Assembly (NCBI GenBank): GCA_002713215.1
Contig: PAVO01000019.1
Coordinates: 372,001-436,000, forward strand
DNA from: Crocinitomicaceae bacterium
GTDB lineage: Bacteria > Bacteroidota > Bacteroidia > Flavobacteriales_G > Salibacteraceae
Reading direction: 5' to 3'
DNA length: 64,000 bases
Below, piece by piece: positions 55,577-62,023 of this stretch. The number at the start of each line of letters is the position of its first letter. Position 1 is the first letter of the stretch. Made by a program: the position numbers and the translations under genes. The notes under the pieces are model-generated. The model saw nothing but the letters and a program-made list of their open reading frames with translations, searched no databases and was not told where the DNA came from.

Positions 55577-56092
55577 TTATAATATTCCGAGTTCTTTTTT
55601 CACCAGCGGCAGTATATCCTGCCCTTCCGGAAAATAAAGCAGAGCGCCTGTTCCGGAATCAATTACGTATGAATACCCGTTGTCTTTGGCAACTTTAGAA
55701 ATAGCGTCCCTCGCTTTCTTTATTATGGGTTCCATAATTTCAGATTCTCTTTTTGCTAAAGCTTCCTGTGCTTTTCCCTGAAAATCCTGAATTCTTCTTT
55801 GGATACCCATTATTTCTTCTTCCTTAGAAGCTTTAATAACGTCGCTCATCACATTGACATTGGCCTGATAATCTGTGTATTTTTTCTCATATTCAGTTGT
55901 CATTGCTGTAAGCTGCATTTCAAGCTCCTTTGCATATTTCTGCAATTCAGCTTCTGCAGTATCCTTTTCGGGCATAACTTTAAGCAATTCATTTGAATTG
56001 ATATGGCCAATTTTTCCATCCTTTTGGGCATTTGCCAAATTCATGCTAAACACCAAAGCGGCTAATACTCCAATTTTTATTAAAACTTTCAT
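55577..56092 (-). CDS. OmpH/Skp family periplasmic chaperone (copy 2)
   Basis: This Skp-family protein has a signal peptide ending near LANAQ and then the conserved GKIGHINSNELLKVMPEKDTAE start, a long coiled coil rich in Glu and Lys (about 50-120), and a C-terminal DNGYSYVIDSGTGALLYFPEG strand block. Skp trimers carry unfolded outer-membrane proteins through the periplasm to BamA. I use ATG 56092 (171 residues), which gives a clean signal peptide; the frame upstream to 56131 overlaps the neighbour. It is the second of two adjacent Skp genes behind bamA and ends at the terminator before murI. Confidence 0.9.
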   Translation of the reverse strand: MKVLIKIGVLAALVFSMNLANAQKDGKIGHINSNELLKVMPEKDTAEAELQKYAKELEMQLTAMTTEYEKKYTDYQANVNVMSDVIKASKEEEIMGIQRRIQDFQGKAQEALAKRESEIMEPIIKKARDAISKVAKDNGYSYVIDSGTGALLYFPEGQDILPLVKKELGIL

Positions 56093-56127
56093 TTGTTTGA
56101 TTTTAAGGGGTGCGAAAATATGCTTTA

Positions 56128-56643
56128 TCACTTAGATTTTCCTAATTTTTTAATGATGAATTCAGTCTTATCATACCTTGTGTTGGAATACAAAATATTG
56201 GATGAACTCGCAAGATCCATAACAATTGCATAATTATTTCGATCTGCCATGTCTTTTAGAGCATCGTATATTTTGTCCTGAAGTGGTTTTACCAGTTTTT
56301 GGCGGGCTTTAAAAAGTTCACCATTCACTCCAAACTTCTGTTTTTGGTACAAGCGAACTTCTTTTTCCATTTCGGTTATTTCTTTCTCTCGCTTTTGCTT
56401 TAACTCATTTGTCAAAAGAATTTGTTCTGCCTTGTAAGCCTGATATAGTTTTTCAATCTCTGAGTATTTTTCTTCGATGGCGTCCTGCCATTTTTTTGAC
56501 AGTTTATCCAATTCGTCCTGTGCCTCGGTATATCCGGGCATACTCTCTAAAATTAGTTCGGAGTTAACGTACACAAACTTTTGTGCTTGTGACCAATTTG
56601 AAAAAACAAGAAGTAAACTGATTATCAAAAATGCTCGTTTCAT
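56128..56643 (-). CDS. OmpH/Skp family periplasmic chaperone (copy 1)
   Basis: A 171-residue Skp-family protein with signal peptide ending near WSQAQ, then FVYVNSELILESMPGYTEAQDEL and a coiled coil to about residue 120, and a C-terminal NNYAIVMDLASSSNILYSN block. It shares topology with copy 2 but only limited identity, so the pair is an old duplication; such tandem copies after bamA are common in Bacteroidota. It starts 11 bp after the bamA stop. Trimers may be mixed or separate; sequence does not tell. Confidence 0.9.
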   Translation of the reverse strand: MKRAFLIISLLLVFSNWSQAQKFVYVNSELILESMPGYTEAQDELDKLSKKWQDAIEEKYSEIEKLYQAYKAEQILLTNELKQKREKEITEMEKEVRLYQKQKFGVNGELFKARQKLVKPLQDKIYDALKDMADRNNYAIVMDLASSSNILYSNTRYDKTEFIIKKLGKSK

Positions 56644-56654
56644 AACTGTTAAAT

Positions 56655-59255
56655 TTAAAGCGAACCAAGATTCGCGCCAATTGTAAAATGAATTTGTGAT
56701 CGATCCATTCCAGGTCGGCCAGGAATATCATCAAAGCGATACCCCCAATCTAACCCAAGTAAACCAAACATTGGAAGGAAAACCCTTACACCAAACCCGC
56801 CGGACCTTTTCAATTCGAATGGGGCAAAATTGTCTATGTTATTCCATGAATTCCCTGCCTCGGTAAAAGCAAGTAAATAAATAGTAGCACTTGGGTTTAA
56901 GCTTAGCGGGTAGCGCAGTTCCAAGGTGTATTTTGCAATTGAAGTACCCCCGGTTGGTGGTGATACCGAACCATCATCGTATCCCCTAAGTGCAATAATT
57001 TCACGACCGTCCAGCTGGAAACCGGTTAAACCACTACCTCCAAGATAAAACCTCTCAAATGGTGCATATCCAATTTGTTCGTTGTAATATCCAAGGAAAC
57101 CAAAGCCAATTTTGGCTTTAAAAACCAAATTTTGAACAACTGGGGTGTACCAGTCACAGGTAAATTTCCATTTGTAGTATTCCACCCATTTATATTTCTC
57201 CTGGGCTTCCATAATGGAATAATCTTTACCAGATTGAAACGCCGAATATGGGGGTGTTAGTTGTAAAGAAACCTTGATGTCAGATCCCATTTTAGGATAG
57301 ATCATTTGATCCAGCGAATTTCGATTTAGGGTAATTCGGTAGAAGATATTGTTTGACACGCCTTCATTGAAAAGGAAGGATTGCCATTTGTTCATGATGT
57401 ATTTCTGGTAACTAACCTCATGCCTTAAAATGAAATAGTCATCAGGCCATTTCAATTGCTGACCTAACCCAACTGTAGTACCCCAGATGGTAATGTCCTG
57501 CCTCGCAGGATCATCCCTTTTTCTGTTGTTGCTTTGGACGGACCAAAACCCAGAAACACTAAAAGAAAGGGGTCTTTTTCCTCCAAGCCACGGCTCGGTA
57601 AAAGACATGTTTAGGGAGGAGTACCAGCGTCCGCTGGTTTGAAATCGAAGTGAAAGTTGTTGTCCGTCACCACTTGGGAGAGGCCTCCATTCTTTGAAAT
57701 TGAGAATGTTTTTTAACGAGAAGTTGGTAAAGCGGATACCTGCAGAACCCACTAGGTTTCCACCTCCCCATCCACCAGATAGTTCGATTTGATCAGATGG
57801 TTTTTCAGCAACGGTATACTCAATATCTACCGTAGCATCTTCAGGGTTAGGCTTGGGTACCACATTCATTGCTTGTGGGTCGAAATAGCCCAACACAGAA
57901 AGTTCCCGTTGAGATCGGATAATGTCAGAGCGGCTAAATAAGTTACCCGGAAGGGTACGGATTGCCCTGTAAATAACATGATCGTTTGTTTTGGTATTCC
58001 CAACAATTGAAACTTCATTTATTCTTGCTTGCCGACCTTCATAAATTCTAATTTCAAGATCAACTGAATCATTTTCAACGTAAACCTCTACCGGAGTAAC
58101 CTGAAAGAATAAATAGCCGTCATCCATATACAGTGAAGAGACATCTTTCCCGTTGGGGTCCATAAACAAGCGTTGCTCAATTAGTGTTGGATTATAAATG
58201 TCACCCTTTTGAATGCCAACAATGTTTTTCAGCGTGTAGGTCGAGAATTTGGAATTACCAACCCAATTGATGCTTCGAATAAAGTACTGATTCCCCTCAT
58301 CTACGGTAAGTTCCAGATTAATTGACTTTTCATCGAAATCGTACATGGTATCCTTGGTGATTTTAGCATCTCGATAGCCCATTTCCTTATACTTATTGAT
58401 GATATTCTTTTTATCCTCATCGTAGCTGTCCTGTATAAACTTTGAGCTTTTAAAAACATTGAGCTGAATGTGCTCGGTGGCATAGTCCCAGGCTATGGGA
58501 CCTGCATAGTTGGAATCGGCATCAGACAGGGAGGCTTGTCCAGTTTCAATAAGTAAACCTTGTGGGTCATAGAACGGCTCAAAAGAACTTTTCTGTCGAG
58601 TTTCCTTCATTGCTTTTTTGACGGTGTAATTGGTTAAATGGTGATTGTCGACGACAGCAATGTTGTGAATTTTTACCTTTTTGTATTTTACAATATCCAA
58701 TGTCATGTATACATGATCGGGAAATTGAGGGTCAGGTGCAATGGAAATATTTACATCTGCTTTTAGATAGCCCTTGTCGATAAAGTAGTATTCCACCTTT
58801 TGTCTTGTGCTAAGCATCAAATTGTCGGTAACAATTTTTTCCTTGTATAGATTGATTTCGTCCCTAAGGTCATTGGCTTCGGATTTTTTTATACCAATGA
58901 ATTTAAATCTTGAAAGTCGAGGTTGCTCTTTGATGTATATGTCCAGAAATATTAAATCTCCTTGAACTTTGGTATAGCTTATCCTAACATCTTCAAACAG
59001 GCCTTGTTTCCAAAGTTTTCTCACTGCCTTTGATATATCGGATCCCGGTATGGTTATTTTTCGGCCAATCTTAAGCCCCGAGATTAAAATCAGCGCTCCT
59101 TCATCCAGTTTTTTTGCACCGGAAACAGTAATACCACCAACTTTATATTCTTTAGGGTTAGAGTAGTCAACTTTCAGCTGCGACCCTCCTAACTGAATCT
59201 GTGCAGAAAGTTGGAAGGAAAGGATAAGGAATAAGAGGACCAATAAGCGAGTCAT
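56655..59255 (-). CDS. bamA: Outer-membrane protein assembly factor BamA
   Basis: The 866-residue Omp85 protein inserts barrels into the outer membrane. It has a signal peptide (ends near QLSAQ), about five POTRA domains to residue 480 (for example GGITVSGAKKLDEGALILISGLKIGRKI, then RINEVSIVGNTKTNDHVIYRAI), and a C-terminal 16-strand barrel with the GGSGLTGFQLDGRE region (equivalent of the VRGF/Y loop) and GVRVFLPMFGLLGLDWGYRFD. Compared with E. coli BamA (810) it is slightly longer. Order uppS-bamA-skp is typical for the phylum. It starts 6 bp after uppS. Confidence 0.96.
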   Translation of the reverse strand: MTRLLVLLFLILSFQLSAQIQLGGSQLKVDYSNPKEYKVGGITVSGAKKLDEGALILISGLKIGRKITIPGSDISKAVRKLWKQGLFEDVRISYTKVQGDLIFLDIYIKEQPRLSRFKFIGIKKSEANDLRDEINLYKEKIVTDNLMLSTRQKVEYYFIDKGYLKADVNISIAPDPQFPDHVYMTLDIVKYKKVKIHNIAVVDNHHLTNYTVKKAMKETRQKSSFEPFYDPQGLLIETGQASLSDADSNYAGPIAWDYATEHIQLNVFKSSKFIQDSYDEDKKNIINKYKEMGYRDAKITKDTMYDFDEKSINLELTVDEGNQYFIRSINWVGNSKFSTYTLKNIVGIQKGDIYNPTLIEQRLFMDPNGKDVSSLYMDDGYLFFQVTPVEVYVENDSVDLEIRIYEGRQARINEVSIVGNTKTNDHVIYRAIRTLPGNLFSRSDIIRSQRELSVLGYFDPQAMNVVPKPNPEDATVDIEYTVAEKPSDQIELSGGWGGGNLVGSAGIRFTNFSLKNILNFKEWRPLPSGDGQQLSLRFQTSGRWYSSLNMSFTEPWLGGKRPLSFSVSGFWSVQSNNRKRDDPARQDITIWGTTVGLGQQLKWPDDYFILRHEVSYQKYIMNKWQSFLFNEGVSNNIFYRITLNRNSLDQMIYPKMGSDIKVSLQLTPPYSAFQSGKDYSIMEAQEKYKWVEYYKWKFTCDWYTPVVQNLVFKAKIGFGFLGYYNEQIGYAPFERFYLGGSGLTGFQLDGREIIALRGYDDGSVSPPTGGTSIAKYTLELRYPLSLNPSATIYLLAFTEAGNSWNNIDNFAPFELKRSGGFGVRVFLPMFGLLGLDWGYRFDDIPGRPGMDRSQIHFTIGANLGSL

Positions 59256-59261
59256 GCTAAA

Positions 59262-59999
59262 TCAAATTTGCTCACTTGTTTTGCCAAAGCGGCGTTCTCT
59301 ACTCTGATAATCCAATACCGCCTGGTATAGATCTTCTTTTTCAAAATCGGGCCAAAGTTTGTCTAAAAAGCAAAGTTCGGTATATGCAGATTGCCACAGC
59401 AAAAAATTACTAATTCTGTATTCTCCGCTTGTTCTGATCATTAATTCAGGGTCTGGAAAATCCTTTGTGTTTAGATAATTTTTGAATTTATTCTCTGTAA
59501 ACTCTTCTGCTTTTAATTTGTTGTGTTGTACGTCATTAATTATTGATTTAATGGCATTTGTAATTTCCCAACGGGAGCTATAGCTCAAAGCAAGAATTAG
59601 AGTCATTCCAGTATTGGAGTTGGTCTTATTGATTGTCTCCGACAAACTTTTTTTGCAACCTTTTGGTAGGGTTTCCGTGTTGCCAATGGTAGCCAGTTTT
59701 ATGTTGTTTTTCATTAACGTTGGGAGCTCCTTACCCAATGAATTAACTAATAACTCCATTAGTGCATCCACTTCAAACTTTGGCCGATTCCAATTTTCAG
59801 TAGAGAATGCATAAAGCGTTAGGTATTTAACTCCAATTTCGGCACAAGCTTCCGTTGCATTTCGCACCGCTTTAATCGCGTTTCGATGACCAAATATTCT
59901 TGCTAACCCCTGTTTTTTTGCCCACCGACCATTCCCATCCATAATTATGGAGATGTGAGCCGGGATGTTATTTTTATCCAATTGGGTTTTGTAACTCAT
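59262..59999 (-). CDS. uppS: Undecaprenyl diphosphate synthase
   Basis: The 245-residue cis-prenyltransferase extends farnesyl diphosphate to the C55 lipid carrier. Motifs: the IIMDGNGRWAKKQG block with Asp21, GHRNAIKAVRNATEACAEIGVKYLTLYAFSTENW, and the C-terminal PELMIRTSGEYRISNFLLWQSAYTEL. Full length. The carrier feeds MraY. It is the first gene of uppS-bamA-skp-skp(-murI); its promoter (TATATTTG, 60041-60048) is separated from the ATG by a leader holding a terminator-like hairpin, so expression may be attenuated. Confidence 0.96.
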   Translation of the reverse strand: MSYKTQLDKNNIPAHISIIMDGNGRWAKKQGLARIFGHRNAIKAVRNATEACAEIGVKYLTLYAFSTENWNRPKFEVDALMELLVNSLGKELPTLMKNNIKLATIGNTETLPKGCKKSLSETINKTNSNTGMTLILALSYSSRWEITNAIKSIINDVQHNKLKAEEFTENKFKNYLNTKDFPDPELMIRTSGEYRISNFLLWQSAYTELCFLDKLWPDFEKEDLYQAVLDYQSRERRFGKTSEQI

Positions 60000-60005
60000 G
60001 CAAAC

Positions 60006-60026
60006 AAAAAAAGCCCTGTTGGACTT
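60006..60026 (-). terminator. Terminator-like hairpin in the uppS leader (attenuator candidate)
   Basis: On the minus strand AAGTCC-AACA-GGGCTT (one G-U pair; 60026-60011) is followed by a T-run to 60006 and lies between the uppS -7 box and the ATG at 59999. It is in the transcribed leader of its own operon, which fits transcription attenuation. Confidence 0.6.
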
Positions 60027-60040
60027 TGTTTTTCAAGCCG

Positions 60041-60048
60041 CAAATATA
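60041..60048 (-). promoter_or_regulatory. -7 promoter element for uppS-bamA-skp
   Basis: On the minus strand TATATTTG, a full consensus match, 41 bases before the uppS ATG. Confidence 0.65.
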
Positions 60049-60143: not shown

Positions 60144-60959
60144 TTACTGAGTATTGTATTTACACAAGTTGGGGTGCTTTCCAATTCTAATGAGCATGGT
60201 GAATGTGGTCATAGTATAAAAGTCTTTACGCTGAGAATTTCCGCGTTGCATTCCCCACTCGTTTTGGTTATTACCATTATCCAAACTTCTATTCGAAAGT
60301 GCCTGAGACACGGTACTCATAGTGGATGGGTCATCGGGGTAACTTGTGCTGACATCGTCAAGATAATCGGTGAAAGTTTTTCGGATCCCATATTCCAATG
60401 AAAATAACACCCTGTGTGAGAATTTAAATTTGAGCCCAAAACCGAATGGTATGGCAAATTGTACTTTATTGTATTCCGCATTTTGTCCTTCAGTTCTATA
60501 CTCCCTAAGGTTATATTCATTCCCATTTAGCGTAGTGGTGGGATTAAACCAGAAAAGTGCAAGACCCCCAAAAATATAGGGCGAAAAATGGTGTTTAATA
60601 ACAAAGCTGTGGTAGGGTAAAAAGTTAAATTCGAATTGCGTGGAAAACTCATTGATTCTGCTCTCAAAATTGAGGTTTCTATTCCTTTTTATTTGCGATT
60701 CAGACTCACTATCATCTCCACTAATCTTTCCAAAAAGAATTGAATTTTTCCAGGTAAATCGGTCATTAATAGGTAGACGATGAATAATTCCCCACGTAAA
60801 ATGGGTTCTCCCAGCCTTAAAATGTCCTGTTTCGTTTAAATCGCCAAGATAATAGCTCATTCCTGCTTGAAGCCCAACTTGATTTTGGGATTGAGAAAAA
60901 GCACCGAAATGAAGAAGCTCAAAGAATACAATTATTACAAATGCATAAACCTTAGCCAT
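60144..60959 (-). CDS. DUF6089 family outer-membrane protein (copy 1)
   Basis: A 271-residue barrel protein with a signal peptide ending near GAFSQSQ, the N-terminal GLQAGMSYYLGDLNETGHFK block of the DUF6089 family, and repeated amphipathic strands; FAIPFGFGLKFKFSHRVLFSLEYGIRKTFTDYLDDVS matches the paralogue at 61080-61994 (SFSDYLDDVGGTY). Function is unknown; the family is confined to Bacteroidota. A -7-like TACTTTCG ends 4 bases before the ATG, so the mRNA should be leaderless. It is 120 bp downstream of the paralogue's stop, same strand. Confidence 0.85.
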   Translation of the reverse strand: MAKVYAFVIIVFFELLHFGAFSQSQNQVGLQAGMSYYLGDLNETGHFKAGRTHFTWGIIHRLPINDRFTWKNSILFGKISGDDSESESQIKRNRNLNFESRINEFSTQFEFNFLPYHSFVIKHHFSPYIFGGLALFWFNPTTTLNGNEYNLREYRTEGQNAEYNKVQFAIPFGFGLKFKFSHRVLFSLEYGIRKTFTDYLDDVSTSYPDDPSTMSTVSQALSNRSLDNGNNQNEWGMQRGNSQRKDFYTMTTFTMLIRIGKHPNLCKYNTQ

Positions 60960-61063: not shown

Positions 61064-61088
61064 AGAATAGAGGTTCGTACTAGAACCT
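61064..61088 (-). terminator. Weak terminator candidate spanning the stop of the DUF6089 gene
   Basis: AGGTTC (61071-61076) and GAACCT (61083-61088) form a perfect 6-bp stem with a 6-base loop that contains the TAG stop of the minus-strand gene. On the minus strand it is followed by a T-rich tract interrupted by A and C. Confidence 0.4.
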
Positions 61089-61994
61089 TGGCTTAAACGA
61101 TTTACCTTTAAGTATTTTGTAACTGGCGGTAATCATAATGCTCATGTAGAAATCGTCGTACTTGGATCCACCCCTGGTTTCTCCGTGTCCCGTCCAATTT
61201 GCATTATCGGCATTTTTTACTGCAGGGTCAGCCAACCTTCCAGCATCTGGATTTCCGCCATTAGCATTTATGATTGCTGTATTATCATAATAAGTTCCAC
61301 CTACATCGTCTAAGTAATCCGAAAAAGACTTCCTGAACATGTACTCGATACCAACATTCCAGTGTTTCCCAAGCGAATATTTCACACCTAAACCCACTGG
61401 AATTGCAAAAGTGAATTTGCTGTAGTGAGATTTCCCGGAATTTGGAACGGTTTGACCTTCAGTACCAATCTCATAAAGTGGTTCATAAGAACCACCTGTG
61501 TATTTTCCGGTAGGGTTAAAATAAATCCCGTTAATTCCTAATGTAGCATAAGCGGATAACCCATAAAGGAATCCATTTTGCGTTCCTTTTAATCGAAATG
61601 CATGACCGAATTTTTCGCGAACGAAGTAATACCTTCCCAAAACTCCAAATTCGTAGAGATGCGTTTGAATATCAAAATTTCTATGTTTTCTGGCCGCATT
61701 TCCTGAACTGGCATCCCGAGCTCTTAAATTCATGTATCCCAACTGGCCATTTACGGATATATTCTTAGTTAAGTAATAATTGTATCCAGCTGTAATGCCA
61801 AAACTGGTTTCCTTAAAATTCATATCGGTAACGGAATTTGATGGCTCGTCATTGTAGCCACCAACATCACTTAAAAACCATGTTGTTCCGGTACCCAATG
61901 TTACTTCCTGACGGAATTTCTTCCAACGCTGCGCTTGCGCATTGGAAATAAATGAAACCATCAGAACAAGGAATATTATTCTTTTTAAGGACAC
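61080..61994 (-). CDS. DUF6089 family outer-membrane protein (copy 2)
   Basis: This paralogue of 60144-60959 has a signal peptide ending near ISNAQAQ, then QEVTLGTGTTWFLSDVGG and the ...FGITAGYNYYLTKNISVNGQLGYMNLRARD strands typical of DUF6089. The C-terminal SYKILKGKSFKPRF lacks the usual final Phe strand end only by being slightly extended. I chose GTG 61994 (304 residues) because the TATATTTG -7 box (62016-62023) covers the longer frame's ATG at 62018. Likely in the outer membrane; function unknown. Divergent enough from copy 1 to suggest different roles. Confidence 0.82.
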   Translation of the reverse strand: MSLKRIIFLVLMVSFISNAQAQRWKKFRQEVTLGTGTTWFLSDVGGYNDEPSNSVTDMNFKETSFGITAGYNYYLTKNISVNGQLGYMNLRARDASSGNAARKHRNFDIQTHLYEFGVLGRYYFVREKFGHAFRLKGTQNGFLYGLSAYATLGINGIYFNPTGKYTGGSYEPLYEIGTEGQTVPNSGKSHYSKFTFAIPVGLGVKYSLGKHWNVGIEYMFRKSFSDYLDDVGGTYYDNTAIINANGGNPDAGRLADPAVKNADNANWTGHGETRGGSKYDDFYMSIMITASYKILKGKSFKPRF

Positions 61995-62015
61995 TTGGTG
62001 AAATTTGAATTGCTG

Positions 62016-62023
62016 CAAATATA
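62016..62023 (-). promoter_or_regulatory. -7 promoter element for DUF6089 copy 2
   Basis: On the minus strand TATATTTG, 21 bases before GTG 61994 and overlapping the ATG at 62018, which is therefore not the start. Confidence 0.6.

Follow-up and report, generated by a model that had tools for sequence, protein, structure and literature searches.

Within the window, by which we mean the whole 64,000-nt stretch of DNA analysed, the minus strand carries uppS (59262-59999, with its ATG at 59999), the gene for undecaprenyl diphosphate synthase (Pfam Prenyltransf PF01255, 1e-86). A bamA-like gene (56655-59255) follows on the same strand after a 6-nt gap, and 11 nt beyond it lies a skp/OmpH-like gene (56128-56643), which overlaps by 4 nt with a second skp/OmpH-like gene (55577-56131). 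The first-pass annotation had described a uppS-bamA-skp operon; Pfam bears out uppS and, through its POTRA repeats, bamA, while the skp-like pair is named by appearance only. On the 5' side of uppS lies a co-directional DUF6089 gene (60144-60959, minus strand). Further upstream are a second DUF6089/beta-barrel gene, an NAD kinase and a CBS-domain gene.

The short interval ahead of uppS contains, on the minus strand and at the positions claimed for them earlier, a -7 box, a hairpin, a T-run and the uppS ATG. The box, TATATTTG (60041-60048, with a C next at 60040), is of the Bacteroidota sigma-A type. The hairpin, AAAGTCC-AACA-GGGCTTT (60010-60027), contains G+C (7 pairs, 3 of them G-C) and runs directly into 7 T (60006-60012), the first three of which form the stem base; GTTTG comes next. 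The sequence therefore has the form of an intrinsic terminator, a weak one at -6.6 kcal/mol. Excerpts of PMC9723704 place the TAnnTTTG box at -12 to -5 in Flavobacterium psychrophilum, and on that spacing the predicted transcription start falls near 60036 (60034-60038, minus strand), giving a leader of about 37 nt. Set against the Bacteroidota sigma-A promoters (TAnnTTTG) described in excerpts of PMC9723704 and PMC7366714, the uppS -7 box has the right form, but the promoter lacks an evident -33 element, as no clear TTTG-like sequence was seen by eye before the box. A scan for sigma-70-type promoters, which is uninformative for Bacteroidota, returned 16 sites against 18.1 in shuffles.

Alone, the hairpin of this genome is unremarkable. 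The hairpin region folds with a z of -0.88, and 36 of 200 shuffles fold equally well or better. The uppS leader gives a z of -1.1 (p 0.13, shuffle test), and 5.7% of its shuffled versions yield a hairpin and T-run in order behind the box. Terminator-like sites number 6 in a 6-kb region against 4.9 in shuffles, and the box 9-mer TANNTTTGC occurs 12 times in the window against 14.8 in shuffles, so it is not enriched. The weight of the case comes from the relatives.

Retention of the layout in family relatives

We searched 35 family genomes for uppS and obtained a match in 34. The start of each relative's gene was taken as the position aligned to the window's uppS start, where a few have no ATG. 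For the -7 box the pattern T[AG]NNTT[TC]G was used, widened once the leaders had been seen, and an energy threshold of -4 was applied to hairpins in family leaders, in loci from elsewhere and in shuffled leaders. Every one of the 34 leaders has the box, 36-59 nt ahead of the uppS start. In 17 of them, spread over 10 of 14 genera, the box is followed by a hairpin and T-run (16 if the weak case L086, at -4.9, is omitted). Dinucleotide-shuffled leaders show the layout 0.42 times on average and at most twice in 300 rounds. Since the relatives keep box, hairpin and T-run so far above shuffle expectation, we take the layout as real.

Its distribution is uneven. The layout appears once each in g1 (the genus of our own genome), g3, g6, g7, g10, g11 (the weak case at -4.9) and g13, in 8 of 13 leaders of g8, and in one of two in both g9 and g12; it is absent from g2 (0/3), g4 (0/1), g5 (0/2) and g14 (0/4). 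On the uppS tree, which does not resolve the family as one clade, the layout label changes 8 times, where shuffled labels need 12.9 changes; branches with good support force 5 of the 8. The layout is clustered on the tree, yet repeatedly gained or lost. With half of the relatives (17/34) doing without them and 8 changes on the tree, the hairpin and T-run are dispensable. Beyond the family, the layout was found in none of five uppS leaders that represent two other families within the order, and box and terminator occurred in order in none of 80 uppS loci from elsewhere (the region upstream of L026 being masked); 24 of these 80 have a box in range and one, L004, a terminator-like site.

Stem letters vary by genus while stem and T-run are retained, and loop sequences differ among genera. 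Pairing in eight g8 and g13 leaders, a set that left out the misaligned L095, stands at 88.9% against 87.7% after shuffling, and 238 of 500 shuffles reach the observed pairing. Among the g14 uppS leaders, L087 has the stem AAGCC/GGCTT (p 0.015) and lacks a T-run, and L085 and L088 have weaker versions of this stem, which are not significant.

Folding strength follows the T-run. Leaders with a T-run fold above chance, at a mean z of -2.71 and with p<0.05 in 14 of 17; those without one give a mean z of -0.49 and p<0.05 in 3 of 17. Hairpin and U-run therefore go together, as in a terminator. In a control set of 39 box-bearing leaders the mean z was -0.81; seven were significant, five of these being uppS leaders and one a DUF1015 leader. 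T-runs come after the 3' arm, and no matching rule places an A-run ahead of the 5' arm. A DNA operator was considered as a separate reading of the inverted repeat and rejected, given that the repeat varies by genus and T-runs stand only behind the 3' arm.

The leader hairpins share their build with the intrinsic terminators that stand at gene ends in these genomes, a hairpin and T-run found by the same detection rule, which at a threshold of -5 marks about 9% of gene ends (88/995). Unlike the uppS element, the gene-end sites do not stand behind a -7 box, and they are stronger, with a median of -15 kcal/mol for the 88 sites against -8.5 for the 17 leader hairpins (p 8e-5 when the leaders are limited to the 16 below -5). 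Genome by genome, gene ends are stronger than the leader hairpin at 28 of 29 sites in our own genome, 21 of 27 in G009, 16 of 17 in G012 and 4 of 6 in G021. In four of the eight sampled genomes, which offer 1-4 ends each, most gene ends are no stronger than the leader hairpin (stronger ends: G030 1/4, G023 0/1, G026 0/3, G004 0/1). Only one of the 17 leader hairpins is weaker than the one in the window.

The layout at other genes

To place the uppS leader among other genes, we sampled 392 kb of our own genome together with the window, and 735 kb drawn from seven genomes of the family. These background samples are not random: G000 is represented by one contig, and genera besides g1 and g7 were picked at or near uppS. 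Genes were called by a simple ORF rule, which missed the uppS of G004, a gene whose leader does carry the terminator. With the energy threshold set at -5, box, hairpin, T-run and start occur in order at 8 of 968 sampled genes, seven of them uppS and the other a DUF1015 gene in G009; the box itself is in range at 153 of the 968. A stricter pattern (TATATTTGC, 10-40 nt, T6, 0-14 nt, ATG) matches the 5.03-Mb genome twice, at uppS and at one site where no hairpin was seen by eye. In four relatives it matches seven times: two uppS, two DUF1015 and three others. Between co-directional genes separated by 20-300 nt (408 pairs), 48 gaps hold a terminator, again at a threshold of -5. Thirty-five of these have no box, eight have the terminator after the box (the seven uppS and one DUF1015) and five have it before.

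With the threshold at -4.5, the same layout precedes DUF1015 in 6 of 30 family loci, namely in G008, G009 and four g14 genomes (L183-L188). The DUF1015 leaders of this subclade have a -7 box, a strong hairpin and a T-run that directly touches the ATG (G009, L143:14422-14471). Our own genome has neither box nor hairpin at its DUF1015 locus (L189), where the upstream stop lies 18 nt before the start. One genome, G034 (L185:2745-3588), has a divergent ORF between a serA-like gene and DUF1015 and retains the leader hairpin, with a T-run that begins 2 nt past the stem. Its serA-like gene ends in a -12.7 kcal/mol terminator of its own. In the other five loci the distance from upstream stop to DUF1015 start is 58-59 nt in four and 71 nt in G009. 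The G034 case, one genome and another gene, favours a role that would lie in the leader itself, because the divergent gene and the separate terminator already shield DUF1015 from upstream transcription.

Termination, junction and regulation

The reading we prefer is that the uppS element is a weak, fixed intrinsic terminator in a short 5' leader, a damper without a sensor, and we give it an even chance of being right. RNA polymerase would start at the -7 promoter near 60036 and make about 34 nt of RNA. At the U-run, which places the predicted terminator 30-40 nt into the transcript, a fraction of the polymerase complexes would release while the rest would continue into uppS. Transcripts from the uppS promoter and from the DUF6089 gene alike would have to pass it, so that the terminator would lower operon output and partly uncouple the uppS operon from the genes upstream. 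We infer termination, its partial character and the lack of regulation from a layout whose presence and retention in relatives are observed directly.

An additional, or even the main, function of the same hairpin may be to stop transcripts that read through from the DUF6089 gene upstream. Ending DUF6089 transcription would be a simpler part-role than regulation. Taken as a full account, it would make the element an operon-junction terminator that ends NAD kinase-DUF6089 transcripts, placed behind the uppS promoter as the junction is cramped, with any influence on uppS a side effect. The arrangement of the junction speaks for this. All 34 family loci have, upstream of uppS and in the same direction, an ORF of 120 codons or more (identified as DUF6089 by Pfam in our own genome only), its stop lies 0-14 nt before the -7 box in 31 of them, and at a threshold of -5 no terminator stands between stop and box in any of the 34. 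Many of the 80 uppS loci from elsewhere likewise show, by eye, an upstream frame ending just before uppS, as if the family had split an old junction. However, in our own genome and in G004 the distance from stop to box (95 and 94 nt) leaves space for a terminator ahead of the promoter, and this space goes unused; half of the family has no terminator at this place. Non-uppS pairs with both box and terminator put the terminator before the box in five of six cases, and the G034 DUF1015 leader retains the layout with no upstream transcription to stop. We regard the junction account as unlikely, though as one to be taken seriously. On both readings no polymerase arrives at uppS except across the hairpin, so that some damping of uppS would follow if the hairpin terminates at all.

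The first-pass annotation had gone further and called the leader attenuator-like, with envelope stress or ribosome occupancy controlling read-through. The first part is a fair description of the layout: the order of promoter, terminator and first gene is kept in half of the family, with hairpins weaker than those at gene ends. By position the uppS leader would be an attenuator, its predicted terminator lying between the first gene and a promoter deduced from the conserved -7 box. In ribosome-mediated (leader-peptide) attenuation, too, a terminator lies between promoter and first gene, and the uppS leader shares this position. Unlike such systems it lacks both a conserved leader peptide and an alternative hairpin. 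Of the 17 leaders, 7 have start codons ahead of the stem, mostly TTG and at varying places, with no shared peptide. The antiterminator fold that the annotation had proposed to look for in relatives did not appear: folding the 17 leaders, longer transcripts included, gave no recurring, mutually exclusive alternative. Hairpin probability averages 0.91 in the short transcript alone. Adding 120 nt of upstream RNA brings the mean to 0.86 (0.81 when that RNA is shuffled), and including 60 nt of uppS gives 0.80. The exceptions are L086, at 0.14 already alone, and L098, at 0.13 with upstream RNA and then 0.0. In our own genome the value drops to 0.51 with 60 nt of uppS, RNA that would be made after the stop decision at about 34 nt.

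A regulated attenuator, in which a factor, a nucleotide pool or the ribosome alters the chance of read-through, is therefore hard to reconcile with a leader of about 37 nt that lacks a shared peptide or a recurring fold, keeps its hairpin preferred when upstream RNA is present, varies in its loops and is without the element in 17 of 34 relatives. Nor does the leader match Rfam, where two hits scored 17.7 and 16.4 bits against gathering cut-offs of 50 and 70. In its favour, the genes of the uppS operon are worth regulating, and the position and weakness of the element fit the 5' regulatory terminators in excerpts of PMC2965389. We consider it improbable, and the proposed control by envelope stress or ribosomes finds no footing in these leaders.

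The premature 5' terminators of Naville and Gautheret 2010 (PMC2965389) are a closer likeness. As far as excerpts of that paper describe them, the uppS element shares with them a sense-strand terminator less stable than 3' terminators, as 5' terminators generally are, a place nearer to the downstream than to the upstream gene (in our own genome) and retention before one gene family in synteny. It differs from the candidates in those excerpts in its leader of only about 37 nt and in belonging to a Bacteroidota family; the main text of PMC2965389 mentions neither Bacteroidetes nor uppS. In the open-licence literature we found no description of a terminator in the uppS leader of any Bacteroidota member, and no paper that brings together uppS, Bacteroidetes and a terminator.

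A further possibility covers both gene families. A compact cassette of promoter, hairpin, U-run and start may recur at old operon junctions of this lineage (DUF6089/uppS and serA-like/DUF1015) as a one-way valve, which would stop incoming polymerase and let fresh polymerase mostly pass. Fresh polymerase would pass because its RNA is so short, with the 5' arm at or upstream of +1; in five of six DUF1015 leaders this arm lies 1-3 nt upstream of the predicted +1. We hold this idea to be doubtful, with a small chance of being correct.

Two other readings have little chance of being right. In one, a hairpin at the 5' end of the mRNA would protect it or influence its translation, and the U-run would be an open stretch where ribosomes bind. 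This would suit a stem that begins 0-12 nt from the predicted +1 and a U-run that abuts the ATG in DUF1015 leaders, but protection needs no U-run, and only 3 of 17 leaders without a T-run fold significantly. In the other, the hairpin in our own genome would do nothing, being either a relic or a product of chance. This would agree with its rank as second weakest of 17, its z of about -1 and the 5.7% of leader shuffles that match it, but the same layout stands at the same place in the nearby genera g6 and g7 and in others.

If the element acts as the weak, fixed terminator we prefer, half of a Bacteroidota family would control its lipid carrier and outer-membrane assembly genes partly after initiation, and the uppS leader would be among the shortest in which such control could be studied. 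It would provide an easy way to find out whether a Bacteroidota polymerase responds to an intrinsic terminator 30-40 nt from the start. Should it not terminate, it would caution that not every leader hairpin is to be taken for a switch.

Upstream of this leader, a consensus scan marks two more terminator-like hairpins near DUF6089-type genes, at 61071-61088 and 61478-61495 of the window, a number within shuffle expectation. Another TATATTTGC, at window positions 62015-62023 on the minus strand, overlaps the called TTG start of the second DUF6089/beta-barrel gene (61080-62018), whose true start is probably a later codon.
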